Origin: Candidatus Hydrogenedentota bacterium
GTDB lineage: Bacteria > Hydrogenedentota > Hydrogenedentia > Hydrogenedentales > JAEUWI01
Assembly (NCBI GenBank): GCA_024280935.1
Contig: JAJRPE010000074.1
Location: 1-36,101, forward strand
Direction: 5' to 3'
Length of the DNA: 36,101 nucleotides
Below the pieces are notes generated by a model. The model was not told the origin of the DNA. It saw only the letters and a list, made by a program, of their open reading frames with translations, and did not search any database. This document shows positions 11,638-30,869 of the stretch, piece after piece; the stretch's first letter is position 1, and each line of letters begins with the position of its first letter. A program made the translations under genes and the position numbers.

Positions 11638-11641
11638 TATC

Positions 11642-11859
11642 GTAGCCGTTCACGGCACGGACACCTTATAGTCAACAAAAAAACCTGCGGGTGCCACGGG
11701 TAGGCCCGCTAGGGTTTACCCGTGCAGAATCGCTCCCTCTGAATCTGGTTCGTCTTCCTCATCGGTAGGAACAACACGGGTAAGCCCTGAGAGGCCTACC
11801 CGTGGCACCCGCAGGTCGCTTTGTTAAGGAGCAAGACGCCATGGGTCGTGAATGCTTAC
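11642..11859. repeat. nested palindromic (REPIN/MITE-like) element, copy 1
   Basis: This 218-bp element is bounded by GTAGCCGTTCACGGCACGG on the left and CCATGGGTCGTGAATGCTTAC on the right, imperfect terminal inverted repeats. Inside, a perfect 24-base inverted repeat (11683-11706 with 11793-11816, core GTGCCACGGGTAGGCC) encloses AGGGTTTACCCGTG and CACGGGTAAGCCCT. Each half is itself a hairpin because CACGGGTA pairs with TACCCGTG. It begins 7 bases downstream of the Gfo/Idh stop. There is no ORF of note inside. Copies 2 and 3 lie near 28.05 and 30.75 kb in the same orientation. Confidence 0.92.
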
Positions 11860-11865
11860 GAATAA

Positions 11866-13083
11866 TCAGCCCGCATAGATTCTGCGTTTCTCACGGTCGT
11901 AGCGCATGCGCTGCCCAGTTTCGAGGGCCGCCGCCGCCATAATCGTGGCTACGGAATGCTGGTGCCCAAACTCGATATCGGCTACGGGACGTTGGCGGCT
12001 GCGCATGCATTCGAGCCAATTGGCCATGTGGTCACCGTCTTCTCCCGAGGATAATTTTCCCGCTTCAACTTCTTTTCCTTTTTCGCCGCCCACACCGGAG
12101 TAGGTCTGGTCTTCCAGATTCAGTGTGCCGTTTCGACCATGGACGGTGTAGTGGGTGCCCGCGCTATTGGTCAGACTCATGCACCAGTTGAAGAGGTAGC
12201 CTTCGGGATAATCAATCAGGGCATGGAAAACGTCGGTGTGTTCGCGACCATCTTTCCACACATAGTTTCCACCGTGCGCGACGGCGCTGTTGGGGTAGTC
12301 CGAACCCATCACCATGTGCGCGGCGTCGATAAGATGGGTCATCCACAATCCAGAGATACCATTCGTACACATGCGATAGAGATGCCAGCGCCGCAGGAGG
12401 CGCGGATCAAAGGGAACCTTCGGGCGGTTGAAGAGGTAGGCGTCCCAATCGACATCTTGTTCCACACAATTGCTGAAGTCGCGCGCCCACCTCGGGTGAT
12501 TGAAGCAATTGCTCGCGGATATGCGGCTTACGTGGCCCAGTTTTTCCGCAGCGATGAAGTCGTGGGCGGCTCTCCATCGTCCTTCACTCCGGCGCTGGGT
12601 ACCCACCTGCACAACACGGTCGTTCTTCCGCGTGAGGTCAAGGGCCTCGTTCGCCTCCTCCACCGTGAGGGACATGGGCTTCTCGACATAGACATCCTTG
12701 CCCGCTTGCAGGGCCTCGATCATGATGGGCGTATGCGCAAAATCCGGCGTAACGATGACCACTGCATCAATGTCGTCTCGCCCAAGCACCTCGCCAAAGC
12801 GCGATGTCTGGAAGGGTTTCTTGCCGAAGAGCTCTTCGACACGCTTGGCCGAGGATTCGCGATTGGGCCGCCACACGTCACATACGGCGGCAATCTCTAT
12901 GTTGTGCGCTTCCTGCAGCCGGGCCAGTGAGCGAATGTGGGCTTGACAGCGCCCCCCCGTGCCAATCATCCCAATACGGATGCGCTCATTGGCCCCGGCG
13001 GCTGAAAAGCTCATCATCCCAGCGCCCAGGGCCAATCCTGATGAAGCCAGAAATCCCCGGCGTGACGGTGATGGGTCAGACAT
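11866..13083 (-). CDS. Tat-exported Gfo/Idh/MocA family oxidoreductase
   Basis: This is a 405-residue NAD(P)-dependent sugar or inositol dehydrogenase-like protein. The start at 13083 gives the Tat leader SPSRRGFLASSGLALGAG; the frame extends to 13278 but only through a palindromic repeat. The Rossmann motif is GMIGTGGRCQ, followed by VVIVTPDFAHTPIMIEAL and the family hallmark EKPMSLTVEEA with the conserved Lys. The C-terminal domain contains the NWLECMRSRQRPVADIEFG segment typical of exported planctomycete paralogues. Exported members of this family oxidise or bind sugar derivatives, and the substrate cannot be told here. A weak AGGAG site lies 9 bases upstream. It has palindromic elements on both sides and may be a single-gene transcript. 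Confidence 0.93.
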   Translation of the reverse strand: MSDPSPSRRGFLASSGLALGAGMMSFSAAGANERIRIGMIGTGGRCQAHIRSLARLQEAHNIEIAAVCDVWRPNRESSAKRVEELFGKKPFQTSRFGEVLGRDDIDAVVIVTPDFAHTPIMIEALQAGKDVYVEKPMSLTVEEANEALDLTRKNDRVVQVGTQRRSEGRWRAAHDFIAAEKLGHVSRISASNCFNHPRWARDFSNCVEQDVDWDAYLFNRPKVPFDPRLLRRWHLYRMCTNGISGLWMTHLIDAAHMVMGSDYPNSAVAHGGNYVWKDGREHTDVFHALIDYPEGYLFNWCMSLTNSAGTHYTVHGRNGTLNLEDQTYSGVGGEKGKEVEAGKLSSGEDGDHMANWLECMRSRQRPVADIEFGHQHSVATIMAAAALETGQRMRYDREKRRIYAG

Positions 13084-13136
13084 GATTATTATCTCCTGTT
13101 TGCTTCGCTGCGTGGGGCACGACGAAATTGTCCTGG

Positions 13137-13268
13137 GTAAGCGTTCACAATACGTTGTTGTTGGCGGAGCCAACGCCCTTATGTTCCCCTCCCTGGAGGG
13201 GTTAGGGGTGGGTTTGAGCGTGCAAGTAAAAATTAACCCACCCCCAGCCCCTCCGAGGAGGGGAGCCT
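13137..13268. repeat. hairpin-rich element beginning with GTAAGCGTTCAC
   Basis: The left end, GTAAGCGTTCAC (13137-13148), equals the terminal word of the 216-bp elements. A perfect 6-bp hairpin GTTGGC/GCCAAC follows (13160-13174). Then comes a 29-base arm (13186-13214, CCCCTCCCTGGAGGGG...) pairing at 25 of 29 bases with 13235-13263 across a 20-base loop. It ends three bases before the stop of the HzsA-related gene and could form its terminator. Confidence 0.8.
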
Positions 13269-13271
13269 TTT

Positions 13272-15719
13272 CTACCACAGGGTGGGTTGCACAATCTCTC
13301 CCCGGAGTTGCGCTTCGCCGCCTTCCTTTTCATAGACGCCATAAAAGATAGAAGAGGAATCGAGCCATACCGTCAGGCGGTGTAGCTCCTCATCGGTGAG
13401 TTCAACATCGTAGTGCCCTTTGCTCAACAGCTCATAGAGCTTTGAGGCCCGTGCGCCAAACTTTCCAGGCCGCGTGCGCATGAGATCGCCATACTTCCAG
13501 AATCCGAACTCGGGCACAAGGCTGTGGTAGGAGGCGAACCAGATTCGGCGGTCCTTGGCAATGACCTCATCGTCCAGGCGCGGTGCCTTCTCCGGGTTGT
13601 CCTGATGGCACGACACACAATTCTTGTCTAATACGGGCTGCACCAGACGCGGATAGCTGAAGGGATTGGTTCCATCCACATCGGGCACCAGGGGCAATGC
13701 GGGACGTTGAAAGGCAATAGGTTGGTGACTCATCACCTTAGGCACGGCGGTCTTCGACGCATGGCAGCCCTGACAGGAAAGTCGTTCACCGGGCTTCACG
13801 TAGGTCGACGAACGCATGGACTGAATGGCCAGACCCTTTTCGTCCAACGCCTGAAAGAACAGCTCTACATTGGGCGGCACAACAAAGTGGGCGCTGCCGT
13901 CCGCTTCCACCGGGGTCGTGCCAAGAATATAGCGTGCCAGGATGACCGAGTCCGCCCCTTCGTGTCCAGGCAGCCGCATTCCTATTTCATGGGGCGGCTC
14001 GCCGGACGGCACCGACATGGGGATAATCTGATAGACACGTAACGCCGCTATTTTCGTACCTTCGGGCCAGGGGGTCTGGCTATTGTAAACATCCACCACG
14101 GCAACGGTTGCTTCCGCTGTTGGGTCGTCAGGGAGGGGCGAAGGGATCACCGGTGGAGTCCTTCGTGCCCGCAACGGAACGGGGTTTTGAGAGGAGATAT
14201 CGGGGTCGCGATAGATAAGTTCCTTGTTGCCAAAGGCATCCACAAGATAAAGGCCGTAGTTGCCAACCAAATCGTAGTTTCCCTGCCTCCCTTGATTCTG
14301 TCCCATTTCGGCATCATAGGCGCAGAGAAAATATTTTTCGCTCAGCGGCCAGGGCGTGCCATAGGCTTGGGCACCGCCCTGCGTTTCGGGAAAGCCCACC
14401 TCTGGGGTCACTCGTTTCACCGGAGCCATCTTATCGTCATCCTCCACCCGAGGATCAACAATGATAAGAGAGCCAAAGGCCTGCCCATGATGGGGAGCAG
14501 CCGTGGCCACATACTTGTGTGATCCGGGAATGGCGCGAATATCCAGTTCCATATCTGGCCGCGTAGCGCGGGGACTGAAGTTCCCGTGGACCGCCCGAGA
14601 ATCCCGGCCATCCGGCGTGGTAATCCAAGGCTGGTGCGCGGCGCATCCTTCGCGATCCACGTAGTCCCACCGCGTGTAAATAATCCGCCCTTCGTGGGTA
14701 ACGCTTGGGTGCCATTCGTTGGTTTCATGGGGACTCAAGCCCCGAATATCTCCGCCATTGTCATTCATGTCATAGAGGGTGTAGGTGGGGCAGACGCGCC
14801 CGCAACGCAAATAACCACCGCGCCGTTCGCTGATGAAGACAACGCGGCCATCGGGCATCCAGCAGGGGTCAAAATCGTTCCAGGTGCCGTCGGTCAACTG
14901 CTCCAGTTGAGAACCGTCCGCATTCACTTTGAAAACGTGGTAGCTGCGCCCCTGATTCCAGTGTCCCCTTGTCGCGTCGGTATGGAAGTCGTGCTCCGTG
15001 TCTCCCTTGCATTCAGTGTACGCAAAAAGGATCTCATTTCCATCGAAGGACAGATCGGGAGAGAGAAAGGAACCGCCCGCGAGGGTGTTTCCTTTCAGCC
15101 GTCCTTTTTCGACCACGGAGTCCGCCAGGATATCGACTGCCTTCGTCGTGTCGCCAAAGGGGTCAGAGAGTTCAAACAGCCCGCCGCCGGGCCGCGCATT
15201 GATGCCGTAATACTGGTCGCACATATGGTTAAACGAAGCGCGATGTCGTTTCAGGAAAAGGATTTTATCGAAGTCCAACAAAGGATTCGAGAAGGCGATA
15301 TCCCTGCGAAGCAAGCAAACCTCGATGTACAGCGCCTTCCTCTTTTCCTTCGATGCTACGGCGGCTTCCCGGCTACGTGATCTCAGCACGTCAAGCCGAC
15401 TTGCCCTATCCAGAAGTTCTGGAGAAGGCACTGCCTCGGCAGAGCGCAGATCGTCCAGCAACGCACGGGTGCGCCTCAAGACAATATCCAGGGGATCGCG
15501 GTCATCAGGCCGTATCGAGGCCGCTCGGTTATGGGTCTGGGATACCAATCGGCCAATGACTACTTGTCGCTTCACATCCCTGATCAGTGACTCGTACTGC
15601 TGATCCAGTTCCGCGTGAAGCGCTGTTTCCTTGCCCTGTTCCGCAGACGTGGCATCGGCGGATATCCCCACGGCCAAACCAAGAACGCACAGGCTGATAT
15701 AGGTACAGTATCGGTTCAT
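13272..15719 (-). CDS. HzsA-related dihaem cytochrome with TolB-like propeller
   Basis: This 815-residue exported protein starts at ATG 15719 (AGGTG six bases upstream) with a Sec signal (MNRYCTYISLCVLGLAVG). An alpha-helical region is followed by a TolB/PD40-type propeller from about residue 200 (SPDLSFDGNEILFAY, MPDGRVVFISERRGG, GRIIYTRWDYVDREG). A C-terminal cytochrome region has two haem c motifs, CQGCH at 649-653 and CVSCH at 701-705. This layout matches proteins annotated as related to the alpha subunit of anammox hydrazine synthase. The true enzyme also needs beta and gamma subunits, which are absent, so hydrazine chemistry should not be assumed. Periplasmic electron transfer or an unknown oxidation is the safest reading. 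Confidence 0.87.
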   Translation of the reverse strand: MNRYCTYISLCVLGLAVGISADATSAEQGKETALHAELDQQYESLIRDVKRQVVIGRLVSQTHNRAASIRPDDRDPLDIVLRRTRALLDDLRSAEAVPSPELLDRASRLDVLRSRSREAAVASKEKRKALYIEVCLLRRDIAFSNPLLDFDKILFLKRHRASFNHMCDQYYGINARPGGGLFELSDPFGDTTKAVDILADSVVEKGRLKGNTLAGGSFLSPDLSFDGNEILFAYTECKGDTEHDFHTDATRGHWNQGRSYHVFKVNADGSQLEQLTDGTWNDFDPCWMPDGRVVFISERRGGYLRCGRVCPTYTLYDMNDNGGDIRGLSPHETNEWHPSVTHEGRIIYTRWDYVDREGCAAHQPWITTPDGRDSRAVHGNFSPRATRPDMELDIRAIPGSHKYVATAAPHHGQAFGSLIIVDPRVEDDDKMAPVKRVTPEVGFPETQGGAQAYGTPWPLSEKYFLCAYDAEMGQNQGRQGNYDLVGNYGLYLVDAFGNKELIYRDPDISSQNPVPLRARRTPPVIPSPLPDDPTAEATVAVVDVYNSQTPWPEGTKIAALRVYQIIPMSVPSGEPPHEIGMRLPGHEGADSVILARYILGTTPVEADGSAHFVVPPNVELFFQALDEKGLAIQSMRSSTYVKPGERLSCQGCHASKTAVPKVMSHQPIAFQRPALPLVPDVDGTNPFSYPRLVQPVLDKNCVSCHQDNPEKAPRLDDEVIAKDRRIWFASYHSLVPEFGFWKYGDLMRTRPGKFGARASKLYELLSKGHYDVELTDEELHRLTVWLDSSSIFYGVYEKEGGEAQLRGEIVQPTLW

Positions 15720-15792
15720 CTTTACACCTACTTTTTATTGATTCAGATCAAGGAAGCCTTACGGCGCTTCAAATTGTGCGTTCCCGCGCAAA

Positions 15793-15847
15793 GAAGGGAC
15801 AGACCCGTCTGCGCTCGTACCTCGCTCCGCTTGCGTCAGTCCCTTTT
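15793..15847. terminator. repeat-like hairpin downstream of the beta-propeller gene
   Basis: AAGGGACAGAC at 15794 pairs with GTCAGTCCCTT ending at 15845, enclosing GC-rich inner words (GCGCTCG, CTCGCTCCGC). A T run follows on the plus strand (CCCTTTTTT). It starts within about 5 bases of the minus-strand stop of the propeller gene. The sequence type (GGGACTGACGCAAGCGGAGC on the minus strand) looks like a REP unit. Confidence 0.6.
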
Positions 15848-15851
15848 TTGC

Positions 15852-16823
15852 TCAGTGAAACACCTCACCCTTCAGGGCATCACCGGGCACATCAAGAATC
15901 TGCACACTTGCGATGGTCCGCATGGTTTTGTGATCCTGAAAAGTCCATACCACTTTTTTATCCGGCGTAACTTCAATAAGGTGTGGGGCCTTGCCAAATT
16001 CACCATGGCCAACCCAGTTCGACATGACCGTGTTGCCGTTGGGAAGGCGATGAAGACCGGCCATGAATTTGAGAGAAATTCCGGGTAGTTCATCGTGCGC
16101 GATCTTCCAGACTTCCTTCCCGTCGGGGTCAACCTCGAAAACCGACGCCGCCTTCTGTTTGTCGCCGCACGCGATCAGCGTATTGCCGTTCGGGAGACGC
16201 ACCACACTGTGGGGTCCGCCGGGCGCCGCGAATTCCTTTACCACGGTGCCATCGGGCGCGTATTCCCGCACGACCTCGTCCCCGGATAGCGCCACGAGAT
16301 AGTTGCCGTTGGCCAGCTTCCGGGCATTGCGCATGTAAAGGTGCCCCCCATCTTTGCCTTCGGGAAGCAGCCTTAGTTCGAACACGATTTCGCCATTTGG
16401 AGCAATCTCCAACAACCTTCCGGCGCTGCATTCACCGACAAAGGTGTTTCCATTGGCCAAGCGCTGGCAGGCATATATTTCGCTTTTCGAGGCATATCGG
16501 AAGACGATTTCCTTGTCCTGGGTGACTTCTGTAACACCCGTTGCCGTGTTGAAAAGCAGGTTGCCGTTGGGGAGCACCCAGAGGTCGTCGCAGGAACCGC
16601 CCGTATCATATTCCCATTCAACCTCACCGGAGGCGTTTACGATGAAGACCTTGCTGGCCGTGTAGTCGGCGGCGGCGAATCGATGGCCTTTGCCCGTTTG
16701 GATATCGCCCGCGTCTGCCTCGGACTGCCCCTGAGCCGAGGCTGCGGCCAATCCCATCACAGCAATCATCAGGACGGATGCCCATGGACAAATATGCCGT
16801 GTTCTTTCGTTACGTTGAATCAC
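15852..16823 (-). CDS. secreted beta-propeller protein with NGN-type blades
   Basis: This 323-residue protein starts at a GTG (16823) with AAGGAG about nine bases upstream. It has a Sec signal (WASVLMIAVMGLAAASA). It consists of repeated blades with the motif LPNGNLLF, LANGNTFV, LANGNYLV, LPNGNTLI and LPNGNTVM, each with a W-x-Y/W or V-W strand (VEWEYD, VVWTFQD). Such propellers are PQQ-like or arylsulfotransferase-like in fold; no catalytic residues are evident. It lies only 21 bases downstream of the trihaem HzsA-related gene, so the two are probably cotranscribed and may work together in the periplasm. Whether it binds a cofactor is unknown. Confidence 0.8.
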   Translation of the reverse strand: MIQRNERTRHICPWASVLMIAVMGLAAASAQGQSEADAGDIQTGKGHRFAAADYTASKVFIVNASGEVEWEYDTGGSCDDLWVLPNGNLLFNTATGVTEVTQDKEIVFRYASKSEIYACQRLANGNTFVGECSAGRLLEIAPNGEIVFELRLLPEGKDGGHLYMRNARKLANGNYLVALSGDEVVREYAPDGTVVKEFAAPGGPHSVVRLPNGNTLIACGDKQKAASVFEVDPDGKEVWKIAHDELPGISLKFMAGLHRLPNGNTVMSNWVGHGEFGKAPHLIEVTPDKKVVWTFQDHKTMRTIASVQILDVPGDALKGEVFH

Positions 16824-16844
16824 TGAAAAACGCTCCTTGCTTGG

Positions 16845-19700
16845 TTATCGTTTCGATGAAACACTTATGCGGTCTGTCGGCTGTTGTGGGGAAAGGGTGA
16901 CGGCCTTCCGCACGGGCGCTGATCGCTCCGAACCGGAACGAAGCACCAGTGCATAGTGCTGCGGCCCCTTGCGCGCCGCCGAATCCACATAGTGGAAGCC
17001 CTTGGTCTCCGTCAGTAATGTTCCGGGTCCAGGCGTAAATCCCGCCGAATCACCGCGATGGACTTCGCCAACCAGGCCAATCGTCCGGGCCGAACGCTCC
17101 CACGACAGGCGCACCGCGCCATCCTTAATCACCTGCGCCTCAAGGAGTGGCAGGGGATCGGGGAGTTCTGGCGGCATAAACTGGCGGGAATAGCCCGCTA
17201 TGATCTGCGCGCCGGGCATGTCCACGCGTGGAGCCATGAGGGCGGTCTCGCGCCCTTCGCGGATAATATTCAGCATGGCCTGGTAGTGGGGATCTTCGGT
17301 CGAAGCGAACCGTGAGACGGGCTTGGCAACGCTGTTGTCTTGCGGAGGTTGGGCACCCTGCTCCAAGAAGGTCTCCACGGGCAGAACACCATGGGCATAG
17401 CTGCCCGTCACCAGCAGGCGAATTCGGCGATGGCGTGGATCCGATTTGCGATCCTGGCACAGGCCCAGTCCACCGCCATCAGCGCCAATCGCCAGGGGCG
17501 CACGCAAGATGCGGCTTTGCTCAGGTTCCTTGTAATTGAACCAGTCGTTCTCAAATTGAATGGTCTTGTCACGTTCATGGCACGTCATGCATCCCGCCGA
17601 AGCCATCTCCTTGATAAGCTTCTCTTTGGTAACGGGCCATTCCGGCACGGCACAGCCATGTTCCGTGTAATCCCAAGTTCCGTTATAGAGGCCATTGGTA
17701 TCGATCCAGGCCATGATCAGGTCCCGTTCGCGCCGCGTAAGATTGGGAATGTATCCGTCGTGCCCATCGGCGACGATTTCGGCGAGGGGCGCGGCACCAG
17801 AACCGTGGCTGCGGGGCGCGAATATCTGGGCGGACCAATGGGCGGTGCCGTTCATACAGTCGATGCCCGCAATAAGCGTGGCCGTCATCTGAGACTCCCG
17901 GCGACTGACCAGATTCTCGTAGCTGATGTTAAAGTGTTCGGTCCAGCCCCCCGACAGGTCGAGTCTCGCCGCGAATCCCTTTTCGCCGCCATGACACGAG
18001 ACACAACGCTTGTCGAAGACGGGCTGCACCATGGTGGGGTAGTCGATGTAACCGCTCCCCCACGATTCATCCTGCAGCTTCAAAACCCCTTGCTGGTGGG
18101 CCTGGCGGACACCCAAATTGGACGGTGTGGCGAATCGGTCTTCATGACAGCCAACGCAGGAGCGCGTTACACCGGGCACGGCTTGGACAAAAGTCCGCAT
18201 ACTCTGAACTAGACGGCCTTCGCCATCCAGCGCCTGAAAATAGACGGCACGCCCAGATGGCACTTGGAAATGAACTGACCCGTCGGGGTTAACCGGAACA
18301 ATGCCGAGAAAGTTCTTCACGCTGAAGGCCAGCGCCGCACTTACCAGAAAGGTCTGGTTATACGCCCGGCCCGACGAGGCGCTTGCCCTGGAGGTTTCTT
18401 CGATCACGCGAAGCCATTTAACTTCGCCGCGCTTGACGCCCGTCAGCCCCTGGTAAATATCTTGGACGAAAAAACTTCCCGTCTTTTCGCCGTTCTCAAT
18501 ATGGGTGTCCAAGATGCCAGGGCGGGATCGTGGCTTGACGAGGATGGGTGAATGAGAACAGATGTCTGGGTCTTCAAAAATAACTTCCCGACGGCCTGAA
18601 CGGTCCATCATCACAATCGCGTTGCGCGCGGCCCCCTCCGAACGGCTGCTGGCCAGCAACACGTCCTTCGAAAGCGGCCAGGGTTCACAGGAATCGCCCA
18701 GATCGTGGGTTGGGTCCTCCGGGTGATCGAAATTAGTGATGGCCTCGGCCCCGTTCTTCGTATACCGCGTATCGATTATTGCCACGGAGCCACGGGGCGC
18801 TCCGTTGTGGCGCGTAAGTGAGGCGGCGATCAGGTAGGGTGCGCCGGGTACGGGCCGCGCATCAAGGAGTGCCTCGGGGCGCACCATATTGTTGGCAAAG
18901 AGGGCCGTCTCGTTTCGACCGTCCGGGAAAACTGTCCAGAGACTCTGTTGCGTGAGGGCGGTCTTGTCGACGTACTCCCAGCGTCCGTAGAGAATTCTTC
19001 CATCGGGCAGCACGCAGGGGTCGAACTCGTTCACGTTGTTCACGGAAATAGGCCGGATATCGCTCCCGTCGGCGTTCATGACATGGAGGATATCCACGCC
19101 CGTGTTGAAGCAGGGTACAAGCCCGTTCGGTCGGGTCGTCGTCAGTATGATGCGCCCGTCCGGCAGGTAGGCCGGTGACACATCATGGTGGACCGGAAAG
19201 CGCCCCTGGCAAAGTTCCTTGCAGTCCGAGGGATCCGTTATGCGCTTCAACCCCGTCCCATCGACACCGATCTCATAGATGCTCGTGGAGCCAAACTCTT
19301 CCCCCTTAAAGCAGAAGAGAATCCGTTTTCCGTCCCACGACAGGTCTGGATCGCTGTACACGCCCTCGCCCAGCGTTTCCGCCGTAGTGGGGTCGATGAC
19401 CGGCCGCACCACGTGCTTGGAAGACTCGTCCCAGGGATTCTCGATAACGTAGATTCCGCCGCCCGGCCCCCATTTGTAGTAGGTGTCATAGATGTGGATG
19501 CCCAGATAGGAGTGGCGCTTGGTGAAGAGAAGCGGCGCATCCAGCCTACTACGCAACGACGTTTTTTCGACCGGTTGCCCGGCCCCCGCCACGCCCGACA
19601 TAGCAACGACAATGCACGCCAACGCCATTCCGCCGACAATGGGCATCGGTGAACGCTGGCGCTTACCCGCCTGTAACGATGCAATTCTGAGACATTTCAT
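16845..19700 (-). CDS. HzsA-related trihaem cytochrome with C-terminal Fn3-like domain
   Basis: This is a large exported protein of about 951 residues. The start at 19700 is chosen because it gives a signal sequence (PIVGGMALACIVVAMSGVAGA); the frame opens further to 19796 without a better site. A propeller occupies about residues 60-400 (DPDLSWDGKRILFCFKG, LPDGRIILTTTRPNG, LPDGRILYGRWEYVDK). Three haem c sites follow: CVGCH at 515, CVSCH at 566 and CMTCH at 704. After the third haem there is a conserved helical region, then a C-terminal beta-sandwich resembling Fn3 (VRLSWERSARTIGL, HYALVLRSGS). It is a longer relative of the protein at 13.3-15.7 kb and probably cotranscribed with the propeller downstream. 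Substrate and redox partners are unknown. Confidence 0.87.
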   Translation of the reverse strand: MKCLRIASLQAGKRQRSPMPIVGGMALACIVVAMSGVAGAGQPVEKTSLRSRLDAPLLFTKRHSYLGIHIYDTYYKWGPGGGIYVIENPWDESSKHVVRPVIDPTTAETLGEGVYSDPDLSWDGKRILFCFKGEEFGSTSIYEIGVDGTGLKRITDPSDCKELCQGRFPVHHDVSPAYLPDGRIILTTTRPNGLVPCFNTGVDILHVMNADGSDIRPISVNNVNEFDPCVLPDGRILYGRWEYVDKTALTQQSLWTVFPDGRNETALFANNMVRPEALLDARPVPGAPYLIAASLTRHNGAPRGSVAIIDTRYTKNGAEAITNFDHPEDPTHDLGDSCEPWPLSKDVLLASSRSEGAARNAIVMMDRSGRREVIFEDPDICSHSPILVKPRSRPGILDTHIENGEKTGSFFVQDIYQGLTGVKRGEVKWLRVIEETSRASASSGRAYNQTFLVSAALAFSVKNFLGIVPVNPDGSVHFQVPSGRAVYFQALDGEGRLVQSMRTFVQAVPGVTRSCVGCHEDRFATPSNLGVRQAHQQGVLKLQDESWGSGYIDYPTMVQPVFDKRCVSCHGGEKGFAARLDLSGGWTEHFNISYENLVSRRESQMTATLIAGIDCMNGTAHWSAQIFAPRSHGSGAAPLAEIVADGHDGYIPNLTRRERDLIMAWIDTNGLYNGTWDYTEHGCAVPEWPVTKEKLIKEMASAGCMTCHERDKTIQFENDWFNYKEPEQSRILRAPLAIGADGGGLGLCQDRKSDPRHRRIRLLVTGSYAHGVLPVETFLEQGAQPPQDNSVAKPVSRFASTEDPHYQAMLNIIREGRETALMAPRVDMPGAQIIAGYSRQFMPPELPDPLPLLEAQVIKDGAVRLSWERSARTIGLVGEVHRGDSAGFTPGPGTLLTETKGFHYVDSAARKGPQHYALVLRSGSERSAPVRKAVTLSPQQPTDRISVSSKR

Positions 19701-20320
19701 TGGCTTCCCACCATGTCTGCTTATCTTCTGATTCACATACTCATCGATAGACGATGCCCCAATCCCCAAAACAGTTCTCCCCGAGGATTTGTCCAATATT
19801 CAGTGTATCACAACAAAGGGCATCCGCAAGCGTTGAACTAAACGGCTTCGCCGTAAATCTATGTTGCCGTTGCTCAAACATCAATCCAGTCGGACGTGCC
19901 GCACGATCCCGTCAGGACTCGTGCGGCACGACTACTATTCGTAGCCGTCCTTTTAAGCACCCCGCGTCCAGGCGGACCAAGTAACCAAGGCCCGTCCGGT
20001 GCATATCACGGTCTCGACAGACCAGCCCGAGCATCCTTTTTCCTATAATCGCCACGAAAGCACCAAAGAAAACTAGTGTGTCTTCGTGGTGAAATGCTTC
20101 TTTTCTTTGGCACGCAAAGGCGCAAAGACGCAAAGGTTGGGCAAGATTATTCTCAATCCCTGCCTGGAGTATTCAGGATTCGGCCTTTCAGGCCGAAAAC
20201 GACATCGCAAACTCAAAATTTATTGTCGATAACAGGCTCCAAAGGGCACTAAACTACAGGGAGGCTTCCGTGTATACTGATAGCCTGTTTATGGTGGGAA
20301 AACAAGGGAGATTTATCGCT
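19701..20320. other. 620-base divergent intergenic region with several palindromes
   Basis: This region separates the leftward HzsA-related gene from the rightward ThuA gene. It contains a perfect 11-bp stem (GTGCCGCACGA 19896-19906 with TCGTGCGGCAC 19919-19929, 12-base loop), a hairpin TTCGGCCT/AGGCCGAA at 20179-20197, and a purine-rich repeat near 20.05-20.14 kb. TATACT at 20273-20278 is a possible -10 for the ThuA gene, but no matching -35 is seen. I find no convincing gene here. Confidence 0.6.
20051..20136. repeat. purine-rich CACGAAAG / CGCAAAGACGCAAAGG repeats
   Basis: Two oppositely oriented units lie together: GCCACGAAAGCACCAAAGAA with the partly complementary GTGTCTTCGTGGTG, then CACGCAAAGGCGCAAAGACG. 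This matches the common AAGAACGCAAAG-type intergenic repeat style seen also near 4.25 and 11.6 kb. Confidence 0.65.
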
Positions 20321-22634: not shown

Positions 22635-22637
22635 CCG

Positions 22638-23795: not shown

Positions 23796-23868
23796 GGGAA
23801 TTTTCCTTTGTGATTACACGGACGTGGGATTTTCTCTATAATCGGACGTTCGCCCAAGAGGACCGGCA

Positions 23869-24053
23869 AGGGTGCCACCCTCACGCGGAGGAGCGAAGCG
23901 GGGGAGCTTGCGGGTGCAAGTTTCCAGAATATACTGGATACCGAAAAAGAAACTGTATGGGTTGTTGGAAGTCAAATGATGACGCAGAGGATTGCCGTAA
24001 GCCCGCACCCGCAAACTTAGCCGGGAACCGGCTGCGTGTGAGGGTGGCACCCT
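23869..24053. repeat. second-type nested palindromic element
   Basis: A perfect 16-base arm AGGGTGCCACCCTCAC (23869-23884) pairs with 24038-24053. An inner pair (CTTGCGGGTGCAAG on the left, CCCGCACCCGCAAACTT on the right) gives a second stem. The flanks are GAGGAGCGAAGCGG and AGCCGGGAACCGGCTGCG, the latter another hairpin. It lies in the gap between the deacetylase stop and the M24 start. It differs in sequence from the 216-bp elements but shares the GGGTGCCAC word and the overall design. Confidence 0.85.
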
Positions 24054-24114
24054 CAATGCTTTCTTTGCAGACGCTGAGTCTACTAACATGGAAGCACAAT
24101 CCAGCGACCCCATA

Positions 24115-25002
24115 TCAATAAAGCTCAGCCAATTGGCGTGTTTGATAAAATTGTGCGCCTTGTGACAGCAGCTTCTTGATGAGGATATCCAGCTGCTCTG
24201 TCGCGTAGTCGCCGCAGTTTTTTACGATAAACGGATCGGGGGTAACGGCACCCTCGCCGTAGTGGATGGCCCCTTCCGGCATGGGATGAAATTCCCAGGG
24301 GTGCATGTAGAAACACAATACAGGCACGCTTACGCCCTGTTCAATCGCGAAGGCCGTGAAACTGTCGATGTGCTTGAGAAGGGCTTCGGCGCTTTCGGTG
24401 CGGAACAGGGGCCATTGGTCGAGGTCGCGACCAAAGGGGTCTTTGTGGGGCCGGCCCAAATCAGCAAAATTAGGAATCTGGAGCAGACGCATCGAGCCGG
24501 GTATGGTCCAATCCTTTTCCGAAGGATGATAGGGTTCCAGCCGGTCGCGGAAGTGGAACATGGGCAAGGTCGCATCAGCGACATAGCCTAGTTCCTCCAG
24601 GGCATTGGTCACAATGGTGGAGCCAAACAAGCGGGGGCACCGAAACGAAACCGGACGTTCGCCCGCAATGGACTCAATTAGCTCGGTGCATTTCCTCAGT
24701 CGGTTGGGCACCTCTTCGGGCAAGATGGGGAAGGCTCCGGGAATAGGCCACAGCGGCTCCCCAATCGTTTCGTGGAAAAGGGTATGGGCCGCCACTTCGT
24801 GCCCGGCCTCTTTTACGGCCTGAACGACTTCGGGCGCTTCCTTTGCCGCATCACCGGTAAAGAAGAAGGTGGCGGTTACGTTGTTTTTTGCCAGGGTATC
24901 GAGGATGGCTGCGGCACCAGGGCGGAGTCCCTCGTAAAAGGGGGTCCAGCTCCCGATATCGGTTTCCATGTCAAAGCCGAGGGCTACCCGTGACGATTCC
25001 AC
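24115..25002 (-). CDS. polysaccharide deacetylase family protein, cytoplasmic
   Basis: This 295-residue protein has a NodB-type fold: LGFDMETDIG at the start, which supplies the catalytic and metal Asp, TATFFFTGDAA, then HEVAAHTLFHE, giving the HxxxH metal pair. There is no signal peptide. The sequence resembles PuuE-like or sugar-processing deacetylases more than cell-wall enzymes. The GTG start overlaps the preceding gene's stop by one base (TAGTG), so translation is coupled. It is the last gene of the symporter operon, which suggests it acts on an imported N-acetylated or amide compound; the substrate is not known. Confidence 0.85.
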   Translation of the reverse strand: MESSRVALGFDMETDIGSWTPFYEGLRPGAAAILDTLAKNNVTATFFFTGDAAKEAPEVVQAVKEAGHEVAAHTLFHETIGEPLWPIPGAFPILPEEVPNRLRKCTELIESIAGERPVSFRCPRLFGSTIVTNALEELGYVADATLPMFHFRDRLEPYHPSEKDWTIPGSMRLLQIPNFADLGRPHKDPFGRDLDQWPLFRTESAEALLKHIDSFTAFAIEQGVSVPVLCFYMHPWEFHPMPEGAIHYGEGAVTPDPFIVKNCGDYATEQLDILIKKLLSQGAQFYQTRQLAELY

Positions 25003-26042
25003 TAGATTTTCTCCATGAAGGTGATATGCTCTCGTTCCCGCAAGTAACGTTTCAGTTCGGATATCGGACCCTGTAAAATGAGTGTCTCCGACTGAATTCG
25101 GCTTGGCGCGACCAAGTCATTGCAGGTTTGCAACGCGCCGATAGTTTCAAGTTCGTAGAAGTCCAGATCGCCACCATTAAAGACGCTGTAAAGGTCACGG
25201 GCCGACCAGGGTCCCCCGGGCTGATCATTGTCGGCGATGTTGAAATAGCGCCCGCCCTGCTCGGCGGTCTTGCGCAGCACCAATAAATTTCTTGCCGGAT
25301 CCAGCGAGCCTATGAGGCGCGGGGAATGGGACACGGACACACCGATCTGGTGGCGGTCCGGGCCGCCCAGCGCAAAGGTAAAGCCCCCGTCGTGGTATTG
25401 GATACGGTCACCAGGAACACCGTAGTAATCATCGTTCACGCACCCGTTGGAATCGGTTACGGCCGCAAAGGCGATGATACCGTCGCCCCCCGGAAACTGC
25501 TCCAGCGACCAAGGCGCGATGAGGAAGGTCTCAACCTCGAGATCATCCTCTACGGCAATGGCATCGTCACAGAAATAGCGTATTCCCTTGAGGTCGAAGC
25601 CCTCGGGTACCGGGTGGTCGTGGGCAATCGATACGTTGCGGAGCATGGTAACCGTCGTGGTCACGCCAGCTCTGTTGATTAAGGTGCCCGACTTCATGAT
25701 GAGCGCCTGGTCTTCATCCGCATCCATAATTTCGGCGGGTGCATCGCCCACGAGGGAAGGCACGTACCATTCATCACTGTCCGGGGGATAGTTGAAGGCG
25801 AAGGACCCGCCTTCTGGTGCGGGCCACAGCGAGTTTCCGCCCAGATTGTTGAACTCCGTTTTGGAGGGTTTCGCCACCAGGGGCACATCAAGCCGATGAA
25901 TCAGTTCATCGCCCAAGGTGCAGAAAATGCGCCCTTGCAGCTTTGGGCAGACGAAGACAATACCATCTTGCCCCGGCAGTGGCACCACATCTGGAGCGTG
26001 GACCCGCAGACAATCAATAAACTCCGCCAGCGTTACAGCCAT
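25002..26042 (-). CDS. conserved hypothetical protein resembling DUF6786
   Basis: A 346-residue soluble protein without signal peptide. The segment FNNLGGNSLWPAPEGGSF and the later RYFNIADNDQPGGP recall the DUF6786 family of planctomycete-like bacteria, probably an all-beta, aldose-epimerase-like sandwich; this is from memory, not a search. It begins 8 bases after the 54-aa membrane protein and overlaps the deacetylase by one base, so it belongs to the symporter operon. A sugar mutarotase-like or binding role would fit, but no catalytic residues are evident. Confidence 0.72.
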   Translation of the reverse strand: MAVTLAEFIDCLRVHAPDVVPLPGQDGIVFVCPKLQGRIFCTLGDELIHRLDVPLVAKPSKTEFNNLGGNSLWPAPEGGSFAFNYPPDSDEWYVPSLVGDAPAEIMDADEDQALIMKSGTLINRAGVTTTVTMLRNVSIAHDHPVPEGFDLKGIRYFCDDAIAVEDDLEVETFLIAPWSLEQFPGGDGIIAFAAVTDSNGCVNDDYYGVPGDRIQYHDGGFTFALGGPDRHQIGVSVSHSPRLIGSLDPARNLLVLRKTAEQGGRYFNIADNDQPGGPWSARDLYSVFNGGDLDFYELETIGALQTCNDLVAPSRIQSETLILQGPISELKRYLREREHITFMEKI

Positions 26043-26050
26043 GCCGTGCC

Positions 26051-26215
26051 TTACTCCTCTACGTTTTCTTCGGAAGTTTCGTGCCCCTCACGCAAGGTGC
26101 GCAGCAGGGACTTGATATCGCGTGCCCCCTGGATCGTTACCCATACGGCCATGATGGAAAAGCTGCCTACACTTAGAATCATCAGCCATTTCCATAGTCC
26201 CATCCAGAAATTCAT
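26051..26215 (-). CDS. 54-residue single-pass membrane protein coupled to the SSS symporter
   Basis: This small gene runs from ATG 26215 to TAA 26051, with GGAGG eight bases upstream inside the symporter gene. Its ATG overlaps the symporter stop as ATGA. The product has a hydrophobic segment at about residues 6-30 (GLWKWLMILSVGSFSIMAVW) and then a charged amphipathic tail (ARDIKSLLRTLREGHE) ending in acidic residues. It is shorter than the known small partners of SSS transporters (DUF4212 and YhdT types) and I do not recognise its family. Strict coupling suggests a subunit or stabiliser of the symporter. Confidence 0.75.
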   Translation of the reverse strand: MNFWMGLWKWLMILSVGSFSIMAVWVTIQGARDIKSLLRTLREGHETSEENVEE

Positions 26216-27804
26216 GGGGTTTCCTCCGTGGTATTTCTGATGCCCTTATCGGGAAAGAGCAGTGAGCCGATTATCATACCCGTACACGCCAGCGCGACCG
26301 TGGTCAGTCCGATATGAGCACTCGTGGCCCATTCCATGAACGAATCAGCGGTGCTGTCCGAGATGGGCAGCACGTGATAAACGACCATGCCCCGAAAATC
26401 CTCGAACCCCATAAAGGCGAAAAAACCAGCCGTGAGGGCGGCATAGGCCCCCGCGTTGCTGGCTGGCTTCCAATACAAACCCGCAACGAGTAAAGCGAAT
26501 GCCCCGCAGAAATACAGCGCGGCCGTCATCGACATAAAGTCCCACAGGCTCTGCTTTAAGGGAAAGAAGAAACTGATGAGAAGAATGGTGATGCCAATGG
26601 CGATGATGAAAGCGCGGGTAATGTAGATTTGGGCGCGTTGCGATACTTCCCTGCCAACCAGTGGAATAACCACGTCGTTGGTGAGGACCGTGCTCCAGCA
26701 CAAAAGGTAGCTGTCGTGGGTGGACATGAAGGCCGCAATCATGGCCGCAGTTACAATACCTATGATGCCCATGGGAAGGATGCGCCCCAGGAATACAGGC
26801 ATGGCGAAAAGCGTATCAATGGCGGTGTCCGATTCCATGCCTGGCTGGAAGGCTTCCTTGAGCTCAGGAATCGTCATAAAGGCAGCAAAGGCAGCAATGC
26901 CCCAGAAGAAGGGGATGATAGTGCGGATGAAAAAGGACAAGGAACCAAACATGAACTGCCGCTTGACGGTCTGCTCGCTATCACACGCCAGCGCACGTGC
27001 CACCGACGTGGGCCAGATGGCGCAGACCACGAGCCCCATGAAGGCCATCCATATCACGTAACTGGACCCGAACTCTCCCCCCTCCATCAGGGGATTGTAG
27101 GCGGCTTCTCCCTTCTCCGCCACCACGACGGATACAATGTCGCTCCAGGAAATAAAGTAGAGGGCCATCCCGGTGGTGACCAGCAGGCCCATGGAGAGGA
27201 CGACGAACTGAATGTAATCGGTGATGATAACCGACACCATACCGCCCAGGACCGTGTAGAACAGCACGAGACTCAAGAGAGCCACCATCACTACATTAAG
27301 GATGGCACCGTCCATGGGGAGTCCGGTAATACCCACGATAAACTTTGCACCGGCGTTGAGATACATCCCCATACAGAAGATACCGCCCAGCGCCAGCAAA
27401 AGGGCGCCATAGACTTGGACCCCCTTCCCGTAGCGCTTGCCGTAAAACTCGGGAATTGTCAGTACTTCATGACGACGCAAATCGGCCACGATGAATCCGG
27501 TCAGACCCACGAAGAAGGTGACCACACCGGCCAACAGGCCAATATGAAAGGCAGCAAAGCCTCCCAGATAACCCACCTGGGCGTTGTACATCACCGTAAC
27601 GAGGCCCAGCTCCGTCCCCGTAAGGGTCGCCACGGAAAGGGCGGTGCGTACGCCGCGCCCCGCCACCACATAATCGGTCATATTGCCGATGTACCGGTTG
27701 GCAATAATCCCAATGGCGACGGAGATAGAGAGGTAAACCGCCACAATGCCCCAGTCCAAGCCGGAAAAATTGGTACCTTGGATAATCGCGTCAAACTGGT
27801 CCAT
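26212..27804 (-). CDS. sodium:solute symporter (SSS) family transporter
   Basis: This 530-residue polytopic inner-membrane protein starts at ATG 27804 with AAAGGA five bases upstream; the longer frame to 27852 lacks a site. About 13 hydrophobic segments are visible. The first helices contain DWGIVAVYLSISVAIGI and TLTGTELGLVTVMYNAQVG, and the family segment YTVLGGMVSVIITDYIQFVV follows. The Na2-site region reads AFMSTHDSYLLCWSTVLTND, close to the SSS pattern. It would import a small organic solute, plausibly a sugar or sialic-acid-like compound, with Na+. It heads a tight operon with the 54-aa protein, a DUF6786-like protein and a deacetylase. A weak promoter candidate is TTGACG (27860-27865, minus strand) with TAGGCT 18 bases downstream. 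Confidence 0.92.
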   Translation of the reverse strand: MDQFDAIIQGTNFSGLDWGIVAVYLSISVAIGIIANRYIGNMTDYVVAGRGVRTALSVATLTGTELGLVTVMYNAQVGYLGGFAAFHIGLLAGVVTFFVGLTGFIVADLRRHEVLTIPEFYGKRYGKGVQVYGALLLALGGIFCMGMYLNAGAKFIVGITGLPMDGAILNVVMVALLSLVLFYTVLGGMVSVIITDYIQFVVLSMGLLVTTGMALYFISWSDIVSVVVAEKGEAAYNPLMEGGEFGSSYVIWMAFMGLVVCAIWPTSVARALACDSEQTVKRQFMFGSLSFFIRTIIPFFWGIAAFAAFMTIPELKEAFQPGMESDTAIDTLFAMPVFLGRILPMGIIGIVTAAMIAAFMSTHDSYLLCWSTVLTNDVVIPLVGREVSQRAQIYITRAFIIAIGITILLISFFFPLKQSLWDFMSMTAALYFCGAFALLVAGLYWKPASNAGAYAALTAGFFAFMGFEDFRGMVVYHVLPISDSTADSFMEWATSAHIGLTTVALACTGMIIGSLLFPDKGIRNTTEETP

Positions 27805-27940
27805 AGATTCCTTTCGCGGATAACAACGTCGAGTTAGCCTAATCGAAGTCATTGCGCGTCGTCAAATTGCGTTTCGACAACCGTTGAATTCAGGTGGGCT
27901 TCTTCCACAACCCAAGACCGTCATCCCCGTTTTCATGGGA

Positions 27941-28163
27941 ATAACGTTGACTTTTCTCGCTTTTTTGCTCAGCGCCTCAAAAGAAGGCTGTCGGGCGCCA
28001 CGGGTAGGCCCGGTAGGGTTTACCCGTGCAGAATCGCCATTTCTGAATTTGGATCATCTCTCTCACTGATAGGAGCTACACGGGTAAGCCCTGAGAGGCC
28101 TACCCGTGGCACCCGCAGATTGATTTTTTAAGGACCAAGATTCCACGGATAGTTAACGCTTAC
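27941..28163. repeat. nested palindromic (REPIN/MITE-like) element, copy 2
   Basis: The 223-bp copy of the repeat near 11.7 kb. The core CCACGGGTAGGCC (27998-28010) pairs perfectly with 28097-28109, and the outer stem is decayed (GCTGTCGGGCG against ACCCGCAGAT). The right end GTTAACGCTTAC is intact, and the left end ATAACGTTGAC is degenerate. It lies downstream of the second M24 gene's stop and upstream of the symporter gene. It has the same orientation as the other two copies. Confidence 0.88.
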
Positions 28164-28190
28164 GTTTTTTGTGACGAGTTCCGGGCGAAT

Positions 28191-29357
28191 CTATCCAAGC
28201 AGATACGCATCCATCCTGGGACTGAAAGGAACAGGGCCATTCTCGGTGATTTCATAGCCAGTTTCGATGCGGGCACCATGCCACTTGGGATGGCCAAAGA
28301 AACTGATGTCCACACATACGGCCATGCCAACTTTCAGCACATCTTCGCTGCCGGGTCCGAAGAAAGGGGATTCTGCCTCATGCAGCCCAATAGTGTGGGC
28401 AAAGGGGCACACCAGATAGGGCATGAGGCCGTGCTTTTCGTAATAGGTCCGGCCCGGCACATCAATTTCTTTGCCCTTGACGCCCGGCTTGAGCAGCGCC
28501 TTGGTCAGCCGAAAGACCTCCTTGAGATGATTCAGGCACTCCTCCTGGTCGGCGGTATAGGTGCCGGAAACGGGAAGCAGGTCGCCCATCACGCCAGCGT
28601 AACCGTTGACCTTGGGGGCCAAGCCAATCATCACCAGTTCACCTTCCTCCATGACACGCCCCGTCGCCGTGGGGACGACCGCTTTCGCACGAGGGCCAGA
28701 ACCGACAATCGCTGTAAAGCCAAATCCTGTGGCACCTTTGTCCCGCGCCGCAAACTCACCCGCTGCCGCGACTTCGATCTCCGATATACCAGGGGCAATC
28801 TTGGCCTTCATCGCATCGAAGGAGCGATCCGCCAGGGCGAATGCGGCCCGAATCTGCTCCAATTCCCACGGGGATTTGTAAAAGCGCAACGCGACGAATT
28901 CGTCCGTGATATCAACCAGGGTCGTGCCGCTGAATCCCGCTTCGATTTGGCTGTAGCATTCGGCGGGCATGCGGCCACCGCCGACCATGCCCACGCGCTT
29001 CACTTCACCCAAAGTTTCTTTCAATTCGGCAAAGAGTCCGGGAAAATCCGTAATCTCCGCATTGGGGTATTCCTCGTCAGGCACCATGAACACGGAGAAG
29101 TTCCGCGTTTCGGTGATGGCGCTATCCAGCTTTGCGAAGGGTTCGCTTTCGGGGCCACCCAGTAGCATCGGTTTGCCGGTCTTTGGGACGAGGACCGTGC
29201 CGATTTCAAACTGGGGACACCACCCCGTCAGGTACCAGCCATTTCCGATGTTGAATTCATCGTAGTAGACCAAGGCAATATCCAAATCTTTGGCTGCCAT
29301 GATGGCCCGCACTTTTTCCAAACGTTTGTCGCATTCGCTTTGTGTTAGATAGCCCAT
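28191..29357 (-). CDS. second M24-family (creatinase-fold) protein lacking metal ligands
   Basis: This protein has 388 residues from ATG 29357 (GGAG seven bases upstream). The frame continues to 29960 but would overlap the AraC gene and has no site. The N-terminal domain resembles the protein at 22.6-23.8 kb (GPESEPFAK, VPDEEYPNAEI). In the C-terminal domain the two Asp ligands are replaced: IGLAPKVNGYAGVMGD puts Gly and Val at these positions. The His is kept (FAHTIGLHE), the fourth ligand is Asp (CVDISF) and the last Glu is kept (ARIETGYEI). It is cytoplasmic, divergent from the AraC gene, and may be its target. It probably belongs to the same unknown pathway as its paralogue. Confidence 0.85.
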   Translation of the reverse strand: MGYLTQSECDKRLEKVRAIMAAKDLDIALVYYDEFNIGNGWYLTGWCPQFEIGTVLVPKTGKPMLLGGPESEPFAKLDSAITETRNFSVFMVPDEEYPNAEITDFPGLFAELKETLGEVKRVGMVGGGRMPAECYSQIEAGFSGTTLVDITDEFVALRFYKSPWELEQIRAAFALADRSFDAMKAKIAPGISEIEVAAAGEFAARDKGATGFGFTAIVGSGPRAKAVVPTATGRVMEEGELVMIGLAPKVNGYAGVMGDLLPVSGTYTADQEECLNHLKEVFRLTKALLKPGVKGKEIDVPGRTYYEKHGLMPYLVCPFAHTIGLHEAESPFFGPGSEDVLKVGMAVCVDISFFGHPKWHGARIETGYEITENGPVPFSPRMDAYLLG

Positions 29358-29609
29358 AACTATGCTCCAACTATTGAGAGTCCAAGGATTTATGCAAACC
29401 ACGCACGGGCAACCCTTTGTGGGCCACCGAACAAGCAACCACAATGACAGCATCGCCACAACACGAAGAGCAACGTCAGTCACTGCTTGTATTCTTTGCA
29501 GGTACTGCCTACAATGGGATTGAAGGGGTTTCCACCAACGCCAAGCAGGAAAGGGCATTATGCTATGATTGGGCGAAATTGTATTGTGTGTTTTCGATAA
29601 GGTTTTTGT

Positions 29610-30602
29610 ATGAAACCAAGAATTCCGCCCAAAGCAGCCTATACGTCCACCCTCCACAAAGTGGGCGTCAGCGCCGCAAGACCGGTGCGTGTGGCCTCCT
29701 GGATCGCCGGCATGGAGCGAACAGGGGATATCGCGCCCGGTGATGCGGATTATCCTGGATGGCACTATGGCTCCGCCGTATGGCTGCACGAGCAGGACAA
29801 ACGCTTCCACGATCATGCCTACTTTGAAATTTGCATCGTTCGTCAGGGAACGGCGTGGCATGAAACCGGGTATTCGAGGGATGAATTGGGACCGGGAACC
29901 GTGGTTGTTATGGCTCCGGGAATGGTCCATGCCATTTACAGCGCCCGCGACTTGCACCAAACCAATCTATACTACTTGACGGAATGGCTGGCAGATGACC
30001 TCATGAGCCACTGGAGAGAGGCCGCGTTTGTGCCACTATTCCTCGCTGCCGTGCTCTTTCGCCGAAGCCATATAGGGCCGATTCCCCAGTTCAGTTTGAA
30101 CATCGATGAACTCGGGAGTATCGACCATGAGCTGGCGAATATTACGCGGGAATCCGCTCTGGAACGGCCCTCCCTGATTTTCCTGCGCTCCTGCCTGCTC
30201 AAGATATTGATCGTGATGAGCCGGGCTGCGGTCCGCGAGTCTTCCGTCGAACTGAGCCTTAAATTTCGCAAGGAAGTAGTGACGGGACTGGAACATATCG
30301 AGGACACCATTCTTCGACGGGATAGCTTTCGGGTGGCAAATCTCGCAATAGAGCTGGGACTTTCGCCTGCGAATTTGGCGGTGCAATTTCAAAAGTCCAC
30401 GGGGTGGAGTCCCATGGCCTATTACCAGCATCGGCGCGTACAGCATGCCTGTCGGCTCTTGCTCGATCTGGAAAAGTCCATTACGGATATCGCCTATGAG
30501 CTTGGGTACTGCGACTCGGCCCACTTCACGCACCTCTTCAAGAAGCACCAAGGGACATTACCTTCGGAATACCGGCGGCTCTACGCGAAGACCAAGAGAT
30601 AA
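29610..30602 (+). CDS. AraC-family transcriptional regulator
   Basis: This is a 330-residue cytoplasmic regulator. The N-terminal half has an AraC cupin-like ligand domain (FHDHAYFEICIVRQG, GPGTVVVMAPGMVHAIYS). The C-terminal half has the two helix-turn-helix units: RVANLAIELGLSPANLAVQF, and SITDIAYELGYCDSAHFTHL followed by FKKHQGTLPSEYRR, the family signature. The start at 29610 has only a weak AAGG eight bases upstream. It is transcribed away from the second M24 gene with about 250 bases between them, so that gap is a likely regulatory site. It probably senses a carbohydrate and may act on neighbouring hydrolase or symporter genes. Confidence 0.93.
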   Translation: MKPRIPPKAAYTSTLHKVGVSAARPVRVASWIAGMERTGDIAPGDADYPGWHYGSAVWLHEQDKRFHDHAYFEICIVRQGTAWHETGYSRDELGPGTVVVMAPGMVHAIYSARDLHQTNLYYLTEWLADDLMSHWREAAFVPLFLAAVLFRRSHIGPIPQFSLNIDELGSIDHELANITRESALERPSLIFLRSCLLKILIVMSRAAVRESSVELSLKFRKEVVTGLEHIEDTILRRDSFRVANLAIELGLSPANLAVQFQKSTGWSPMAYYQHRRVQHACRLLLDLEKSITDIAYELGYCDSAHFTHLFKKHQGTLPSEYRRLYAKTKR

Positions 30603-30640
30603 GCAGCCACTCGCCGCGAAGACTTCGCGAAACGATTTCG

Positions 30641-30856
30641 GTAAGCGTTCACGGCACGGGCAACTATAGTCGACAAAAAGACCGTCGGGTGCCACGGGTA
30701 GGCCCGGTAGGGTTTACCCGTGCAGATGCACGGTCTCTGGTTTTGGATCGCCTCCCTCACCGATAGGAACTACACGGGTAAGCCCTGAGAGGCCTACCCG
30801 TGGCACCCGACGGTTGTTTTTTTAAGGACCAAAATGGCATGGGCCGTAACGCTTAC
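30641..30856. repeat. nested palindromic (REPIN/MITE-like) element, copy 3
   Basis: The cleanest copy, 216 bp. It starts GTAAGCGTTCACGGCACGGG and ends GGGCCGTAACGCTTAC, terminal inverted repeats. A perfect 24-base arm (30681-30704 with 30791-30814, ACCGTCGGGTGCCACGGGTA) surrounds AGGGTTTACCCGTG and CACGGGTAAGCCCT. T runs flank both sides of the stem. Its outer stem letters (CCGTCGG) differ from copy 1 (CCTGCGG), but both pair perfectly with their partners. It lies between the convergent AraC and TIM-barrel gene ends. Confidence 0.93.
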
Positions 30857-30869
30857 CCTTTTCGCGACC

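Follow-up and report, generated by a model that had tools for sequence, protein, structure and literature searches.

The window analysed here is a whole stretch of 36,101 nucleotides (contig JAJRPE010000074.1 of a Candidatus Hydrogenedentota bacterium), which is contig 184 of an assembly of 6.76 Mb in 661 contigs with a completeness of 94.8%. It carries three copies of a nested palindromic element of about 216 bp (Table 1), which an original prediction had likened to REPINs, that is, inverted pairs of repetitive extragenic palindromic (REP) sequences, or to small miniature inverted-repeat transposable elements (MITEs), mobilised by a REP-associated tyrosine transposase (RAYT). We find that the element has two layers, an outer one with the ends and target duplications of IS66 transposons and an inner one that fits a REPIN. 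We therefore read it as a non-autonomous IS66-family transposon, a MITE with a REPIN as cargo, with a probability of roughly 0.78.

Copies in the window and in the genome

Copies 1 and 3 are full length and show the nested palindrome as predicted, including the internal inverted repeat and the hairpins of the two halves. A left end cannot be recognised in copy 2, which had also been taken for a full copy and matches the family only from about 27959 on. All three lie in the same orientation and have minus-strand stops 6, 27 and 13 bases from their right ends, as had been foreseen, the neighbouring minus-strand open reading frames (ORFs) being 11866-13278, 28191-29960 and 30870-33701, respectively. 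The terminal words that the copies had been said to share occur in exact form in copy 3 only; copy 1 starts with GTAGCCGTTCACGG and ends with GTGAATGCTTAC.

Table 1. Positions of the composite elements and of associated features in the window
Feature	Position	Strand	Basis or remark
Copy 1, composite IS66-type MITE with REPIN-like core, 218 bp	11642..11859	+	
Left target duplication of copy 1, GAATTATC	11634..11641	.	Agrees with right flank at 7/8
Right target duplication of copy 1, GAATAATC	11860..11867	.	
Left tag of copy 1, CTGC	11685..11688	+	
Left REP of copy 1	11689..11724	+	Hairpin-pattern search
Right REP of copy 1, inverted	11775..11810	-	Hairpin-pattern search
Right tag of copy 1, GCAG (other strand: CTGC)	11811..11814	-	
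IS66-type end, then CCCCTCC/GGAGGGG palindrome pair; no right end found	13137..13266	+	End-word search
CGTC-type REP hairpin at expected left end of copy 2	27919..27946	+	Resemblance to the description in the excerpt of PMC3733652
Copy 2, composite minus its left end	27959..28163	+	Classed as half
Left REP of copy 2	27993..28028	+	Tag TGTC at 27989-27992
Right REP of copy 2	28079..28114	-	Tag GCAG at 28115-28118
Left flank of copy 3, CGATTTCG	30633..30640	.	Agrees with right flank at 6/8
Copy 3, composite, 216 bp	30641..30856	+	
Left REP of copy 3	30687..30722	+	Tag CGTC at 30683-30686
Right REP of copy 3	30773..30808	-	Tag GACG at 30809-30812
Right flank of copy 3, CCTTTTCG	30857..30864	.	

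The genome holds far more than these three copies. A 30-base pattern of the internal hairpin, allowing up to 3 mismatches, occurs genome-wide at 310 places per strand against 0 for the reversed pattern (it is near-palindromic, so that these count as 310 arms), and the exact end word TGAACGCTTAC occurs at 213 places against 1 for its control. The REP word GGGTGCCACGG occurs at 578 places (control 11). Detailed analysis covered 1,080,741 bases including the window, on contigs mostly picked for holding matches. This sample contained 126 loci, 4 of them without room for the end search, and 26 of the 122 usable ones lacked a REP pair at a spacing of 100-140 bp. The 96 classified loci comprised 53 composites with both MITE arms, 13 with one arm and 30 with neither. 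A subset of 216,826 bases (C1-C20, with C18 picked because of a hit) contained 3 composites, 1 half locus and 3 stand-alone ones. Because 163 of the 310 hairpin arms fall in the sample, arm-bearing copies of the unit perhaps number about 100 in the genome, a figure extrapolated from chosen sequence.

IS66-type ends and target duplications

The element ends in GTAAGCGTTCACGG...CCGTGAACGCTTAC, with terminal inverted repeats that start GTAAGCG/GTAACCG and arms about 43-45 nt long. Target duplications, which the original prediction had proposed looking for, were sought in copies that had both flanks and both ends, each end matching at 8 of 11 bases or more; 48 copies had both ends and one of these lacked a flank, leaving 47. 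The 8 flanking bases agreed at 8/8 positions in 13 copies, at 7/8 in 11, at 6/8 in 8 and at fewer in 15, so that 24 of the 47 carry a duplication at 7/8 or 8/8, whereas left and right flanks taken from different copies agreed at 7/8 in 0.23% of comparisons and at 8/8 in none. Exact direct repeats of 8 bases are present in the same 13 copies, and longer ones of 9 to 12 bases in 0/47. Together, the ends and the 8-bp flanking repeats mark the 216-bp unit as an IS66-type MITE. At one place two MITEs lie adjacent with related flanks, in the order AAATAATC-MITE-AAATAATC-MITE-AAATAACC.

These features are shared with the IS66 family in the excerpts of three papers, which report IS66 ends starting GTAAGCG with 8-bp repeats (PMC11946415), the GTAACCG variant of these ends (PMC12888890) and 8-bp repeats for two Paracoccus IS66 elements (PMC3281130). 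Unlike the IS66 elements of those excerpts, the unit has no transposase gene, measures about 216 bp and contains a REPIN-like core, and among the matches listed from the IS66 literature, in the parts seen, there was no IS66-derived MITE family.

The genome gives a single IS66 transposase match, an internally deleted ORF that fuses N-terminal and C-terminal parts of TnpC, and it lies in a 657-bp relic whose ends, GTAACCGTTCACGG and CCGTGAACGCTTAC, are of the same kind as those of the MITEs. The relic ORF passes the cut-off of Pfam PF03050 (31.3 bits, cut-off 23.1) and, being partial, falls below that of NCBIfam transpos_IS66 (43.5 bits, cut-off 180). A homologue in genome G062 retains the end GTAACCGTTCACGG. 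Another genome, G114, has IS66 copies of about 1494 bp with GTAACCATTCAGG/GTAACTATTCAGG as their ends; exact 8-bp repeats flank 5 of the 6 loci, and that of the sixth is shifted by one base. Two larger spans between end words, of 2862 and 2411 bp, contain unrelated ORFs.

Because the copies carry both 8-bp duplications and IS66-type ends, an IS66-family DDE transposase is most likely the mover of the 216-bp unit, as judged from sequence. Acting in trans, such an enzyme would recognise GTAAGCGTTCACGG-like ends and insert the unit as a whole. The original prediction thus holds in that a REPIN fits the core and a MITE fits the whole, and fails in making a RAYT the mover of the whole unit, a reading rejected for the target duplications around it; the RAYT mechanism is not known to produce such duplications.

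The REPIN-like core, its conservation and alternative readings

The core consists of two inverted REP hairpins, GGGTGCCACGGGTAGGCC...CCCGTG, with a CNNC tag at each outer edge and A-rich/T-rich borders. The CTAC form of the tag is GTAG on the other strand, a polarity opposite to the usual 5' GTAG. The 30 classified loci with neither arm are such cores standing alone, and two sister species (G002 and G003) have hairpins that share its skeleton but not its stem letters and that lack the MITE ends, the end words being at control level there (3 vs 6 and 2 vs 5). A search with the whole element through 147 genomes, scoring at most 5 candidates per genome, gave matches in G000, G002 and G003 only.

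The search for a RAYT gene, also suggested by the original prediction, succeeded outside the window. A gene of 197 amino acids on contig 43 scores 94.2 bits against NCBIfam REP_Tyr_transpos (cut-off 80) and is bracketed, at distances of 7 and 11 nt, by inverted REPs that share the skeleton of those in the element but differ in stem and loop letters. A second RAYT, on contig 411, scores 93.7 bits against the same model and is flanked on either side by hairpins of another family, GGGTGCCACCCTCAC. Among the named genomes the RAYT protein has three distant relatives, the best at 41% (a metagenome-assembled genome of Planctomycetota). The core fits a REPIN in its inverted, tagged REP hairpins, in occurring also by itself and in having related hairpins on both sides of a RAYT gene.

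Two further observations touch these hairpin families. The window holds a second REPIN-like inverted pair at 23869-24053 (GGGTGCCACCCTCACGCGGAGG...), of the family that flanks the contig 411 RAYT, and a REPIN of the sister-species type, at L164:2703-2819, precedes an IS200-type Y1 gene of contig 330 by 281-389 bp.

The core also bears on whether the element could be an IS66 MITE of the ordinary kind, with a palindromic interior that is self-made and unrelated to RAYTs. The ends and duplications would be expected of such a MITE, and other MITEs of this genome have palindromic interiors free of REPs, but here the core stands alone, has relatives without the ends in G002 and G003 and resembles hairpins that bracket a RAYT gene, and we consider this explanation improbable.

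Conservation is unequal along the element. In an alignment of 44 copies (4 were omitted for low score or similarity), the REP halves had a mean pairwise identity of 0.97 and 0.98, compared with 0.81 and 0.78 in the 14-bp ends, 0.82 and 0.74 in the arms and 0.70 in the spacer, and the 13 copies with 8/8 duplications gave the same order. A unit moved only by its IS66 ends should conserve these ends best; the REPs are conserved best instead, and therefore the REPs within the MITE are presumably subject to selection, gene conversion or RAYT turnover. Correlations of distances between the parts (arms, spacer, REPs, tags) lay between -0.12 and 0.43 and did not separate RAYT exchange from mutation. 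On our reading as a MITE with REPIN cargo, the REPIN would have been captured in this lineage and since copied mainly as cargo, and its halves might have been kept near-identical within the MITE by RAYT-linked turnover, gene conversion or selection.

The tags behave quite differently from the REPs. Their positions are the most variable of the element (mean pairwise identity 0.40-0.42), and the contrast between CCTGCGG and CCGTCGG in copies 1 and 3, which had been explained by a compensated outer stem, is a difference of this variable tag. The two variable outer pairs are unpaired in 21 and 12 of the 44 aligned copies, while none of the 14 pairs further in is broken in more than 2, and the tag dinucleotides of the two sides differ in 33 of the 53 composites. 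The outer stem thus varies without pairing, contrary to the structural reading of the original prediction, and these unpaired copies rule out compensatory selection as a rule. In the stand-alone cores, CTAC on one side is combined with CGTC on the other in 8/30 and the tags are equal in 2/30. Since the neighbour nearest by its arms shares the left tag in 25/44 copies and the right tag in 26/44, against 27% and 23% for random pairs, the tags are inherited but fast-changing. In known systems the REP tag tetranucleotide has been proposed to guide cleavage (excerpt of PMC8266576), and by analogy tag change could mark RAYT action.

The same data, with REP halves as the best conserved part and with REP hairpins, tags and RAYT genes all present, would suit a plain REPIN or bacterial interspersed mosaic element moved whole by a RAYT, the ends being merely its outer stem. 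This is somewhat less probable still than a self-made palindrome, because 8-bp target duplications surround the whole unit, 30 of 96 cores lack the arms and the same ends occur on several unrelated short elements of this genome, some of them without REPs.

Strong conservation of the REP halves relative to the remainder could also come from host selection. The consensus RNA folds at -135.8 kcal/mol, against -75.9 (standard deviation 5.0) for 100 mononucleotide shuffles, and no known Rfam RNA matched the window at the gathering score. According to a home-made ORF caller, on which all gene-context counts rest, the 53 composites lie in tandem (26), divergent (11) and convergent (4) gaps, inside ORFs (5) and at contig edges (7), and placement just after a stop was not upheld as a rule across them. 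A host-selected terminator or mRNA stabiliser, kept for its fold and only incidentally mobile, would account for the conserved REP halves, for the three window copies directly after stops and for the fold well below shuffles, but given this spread of the composites over gap types, ORFs and contig edges, their mixed orientation relative to the nearby stop (14 opposite, 7 same) and outer pairs that are not maintained, it is the least probable of the alternatives.

Several results weigh against our own reading of a MITE with REPIN cargo. The sample was largely selected for hits, and the flanks agree at no more than 6/8 in 23 of the 47 copies. The sampled 1.08 Mb yielded no MITE arms that lacked a REPIN, so the capture step is not visible. 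A complete IS66 transposase was not found in the assembly, with its 661 contigs and 94.8% completeness, and the one relic has no clear target duplication (flanks GAATCCCG/GGAATTCC). Tag dinucleotides are equal on both sides in 20/53 composites against 11.7 when shuffled (p=0.003), so that tags pair somewhat more often than expected, an excess that may stem from subfamilies. Finally, REP-1 words lie within 400 bp of 2 of 18 Y1 genes, with about 1.2 estimated from word density; since this proximity about equals the density expectation, the link to RAYTs rests on arrangement and sequence family.

Other IS66-ended units and related systems

The window element is not the only short unit with such ends. 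The sample contained 42 IS66-type end pairs with 7/8 or 8/8 duplications (a few of which span two units), against 0 in each of five shifted controls, and 27 of them group with the window element. The rest include units of 134-148 bp around CGTC-type REP dimers, units of 92 and 150-156 bp around CCCCTCC/GGAGGGG palindromes and a second type of GGGTGCCAC REPIN enclosed in 199 bp (7/8 duplication), as well as units of 247 and 276 bp that are free of REPs.

CGTC-type dimers, called with a pattern of our own, were found as 34 inverted pairs in the sample, with IS66 ends on both sides in 6, on the left only in 3 and on the right only in 2. The 6 double-ended ones comprise 4 with 8/8 duplications and others at 6/8 and 4/8, and 4 of these 6 loci had been fetched for their end words. 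Once these 4 are set aside, 2 of the remaining 30 dimers are double-ended, each with an 8/8 duplication, as compared with both ends in 31 of 40,000 random intervals.

Similar units occur in genomes outside this family but within the order. One in G051, 211 bp long with an 8/8 duplication, encloses a TGTCATTTCGAGC dimer that, by resemblance, would be a CGTC-class REP. G015 has a uniform unit of 153-156 bp (loci L217-L229) in which no REPs are recognisable; 13 loci have both ends, and 6 of these carry 8/8 duplications. In a comparison of 68 genomes of the order, end words stood far above control in G000 (273 vs 1), G013 (98 vs 3) and G015 (33 vs 3), with smaller excesses in G023 (18 vs 3), G054 (18 vs 2) and G043 (11 vs 2).

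It is possible, though we hold it only tentatively and think it rather doubtful, that IS66-type MITEs are general vehicles of REP dimers, with independent captures of several classes in this order (GGGTGCCAC REPINs on two or more occasions, and dimers with CGTC/TGTC tags in two families) and captured REPs under RAYT-linked turnover. If so, CGTC REPs, reported to lack a transposase of their own, would gain a way to spread, and a single 216-bp unit would be subject to two unrelated transposition systems.

RAYT transposases are commonly regarded as the enzymes on which REPs and REPINs rely, and REP dimers travelling as cargo of a DDE-transposon MITE with target duplications would be a second route of spread, one that could explain palindromes reported around REP dimers in other bacteria. 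The many copies in one genome allow the conservation of cargo and carrier to be compared. REPINs and IS66 elements were already known; what would be new is a REPIN carried by a DDE-transposon MITE, and no REPIN inside an IS66 MITE was described in the titles and abstract starts of the matches listed from the open-licence literature, a search that left ISfinder outside.

As described in the excerpt of PMC3116915, REPINs likewise have two inverted REPs, best conserved, and a less conserved spacer of similar length; unlike them, most copies here sit inside MITE arms with target duplications, and the tag is a variable CNNC before the hairpin. In the excerpt of PMC3733652, REP dimers lie regularly within a palindrome in A. 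variabilis and H. neapolitanus, and CGTC repeats are not associated with transposase genes. Those CGTC- and GTAG-tagged dimers are, like the core here, enclosed in a longer palindrome, but the palindromes are not named as transposons there, whereas the enclosing one here is an IS66-type MITE with duplications. MITECca01 of Cardinium, derived from IS982, resembles our element in lineage-specific spread and more than 100 copies, and differs in its IS family, in having intact parental copies and in that no REP cargo is mentioned in the excerpt of PMC9769881.

Some loci depart from these arrangements. The right MITE arm, with the left one absent, is joined to REP-2 (GGGTGCCACC) REPINs at L061:10094-10137 and L099:791-834 and to a CGTC REP at L124:6262-6303, and a collapsed copy lies at L097. 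The IS66-type end listed in Table 1 between copies 1 and 2 falls in the upstream part of the ORF annotated at 11866-13278, and because it occupies that part, the true start of the gene probably lies further in than listed.

As for the neighbouring genes, compared in a search for an empty site, the one next to copy 2 has a counterpart in G001 (75% identity), behind which REP and end words are absent and the neighbours differ too; the gene next to copy 3 has matches in G001 and G002 at 43-44%. Elsewhere in the window, a tandem array of an 18-base unit (12.6 copies, 95% match) occupies positions 1-226 at the contig end, and an inverted repeat of 32 bases around an 8-base loop, with 91% complementarity, lies at 4246-4317.

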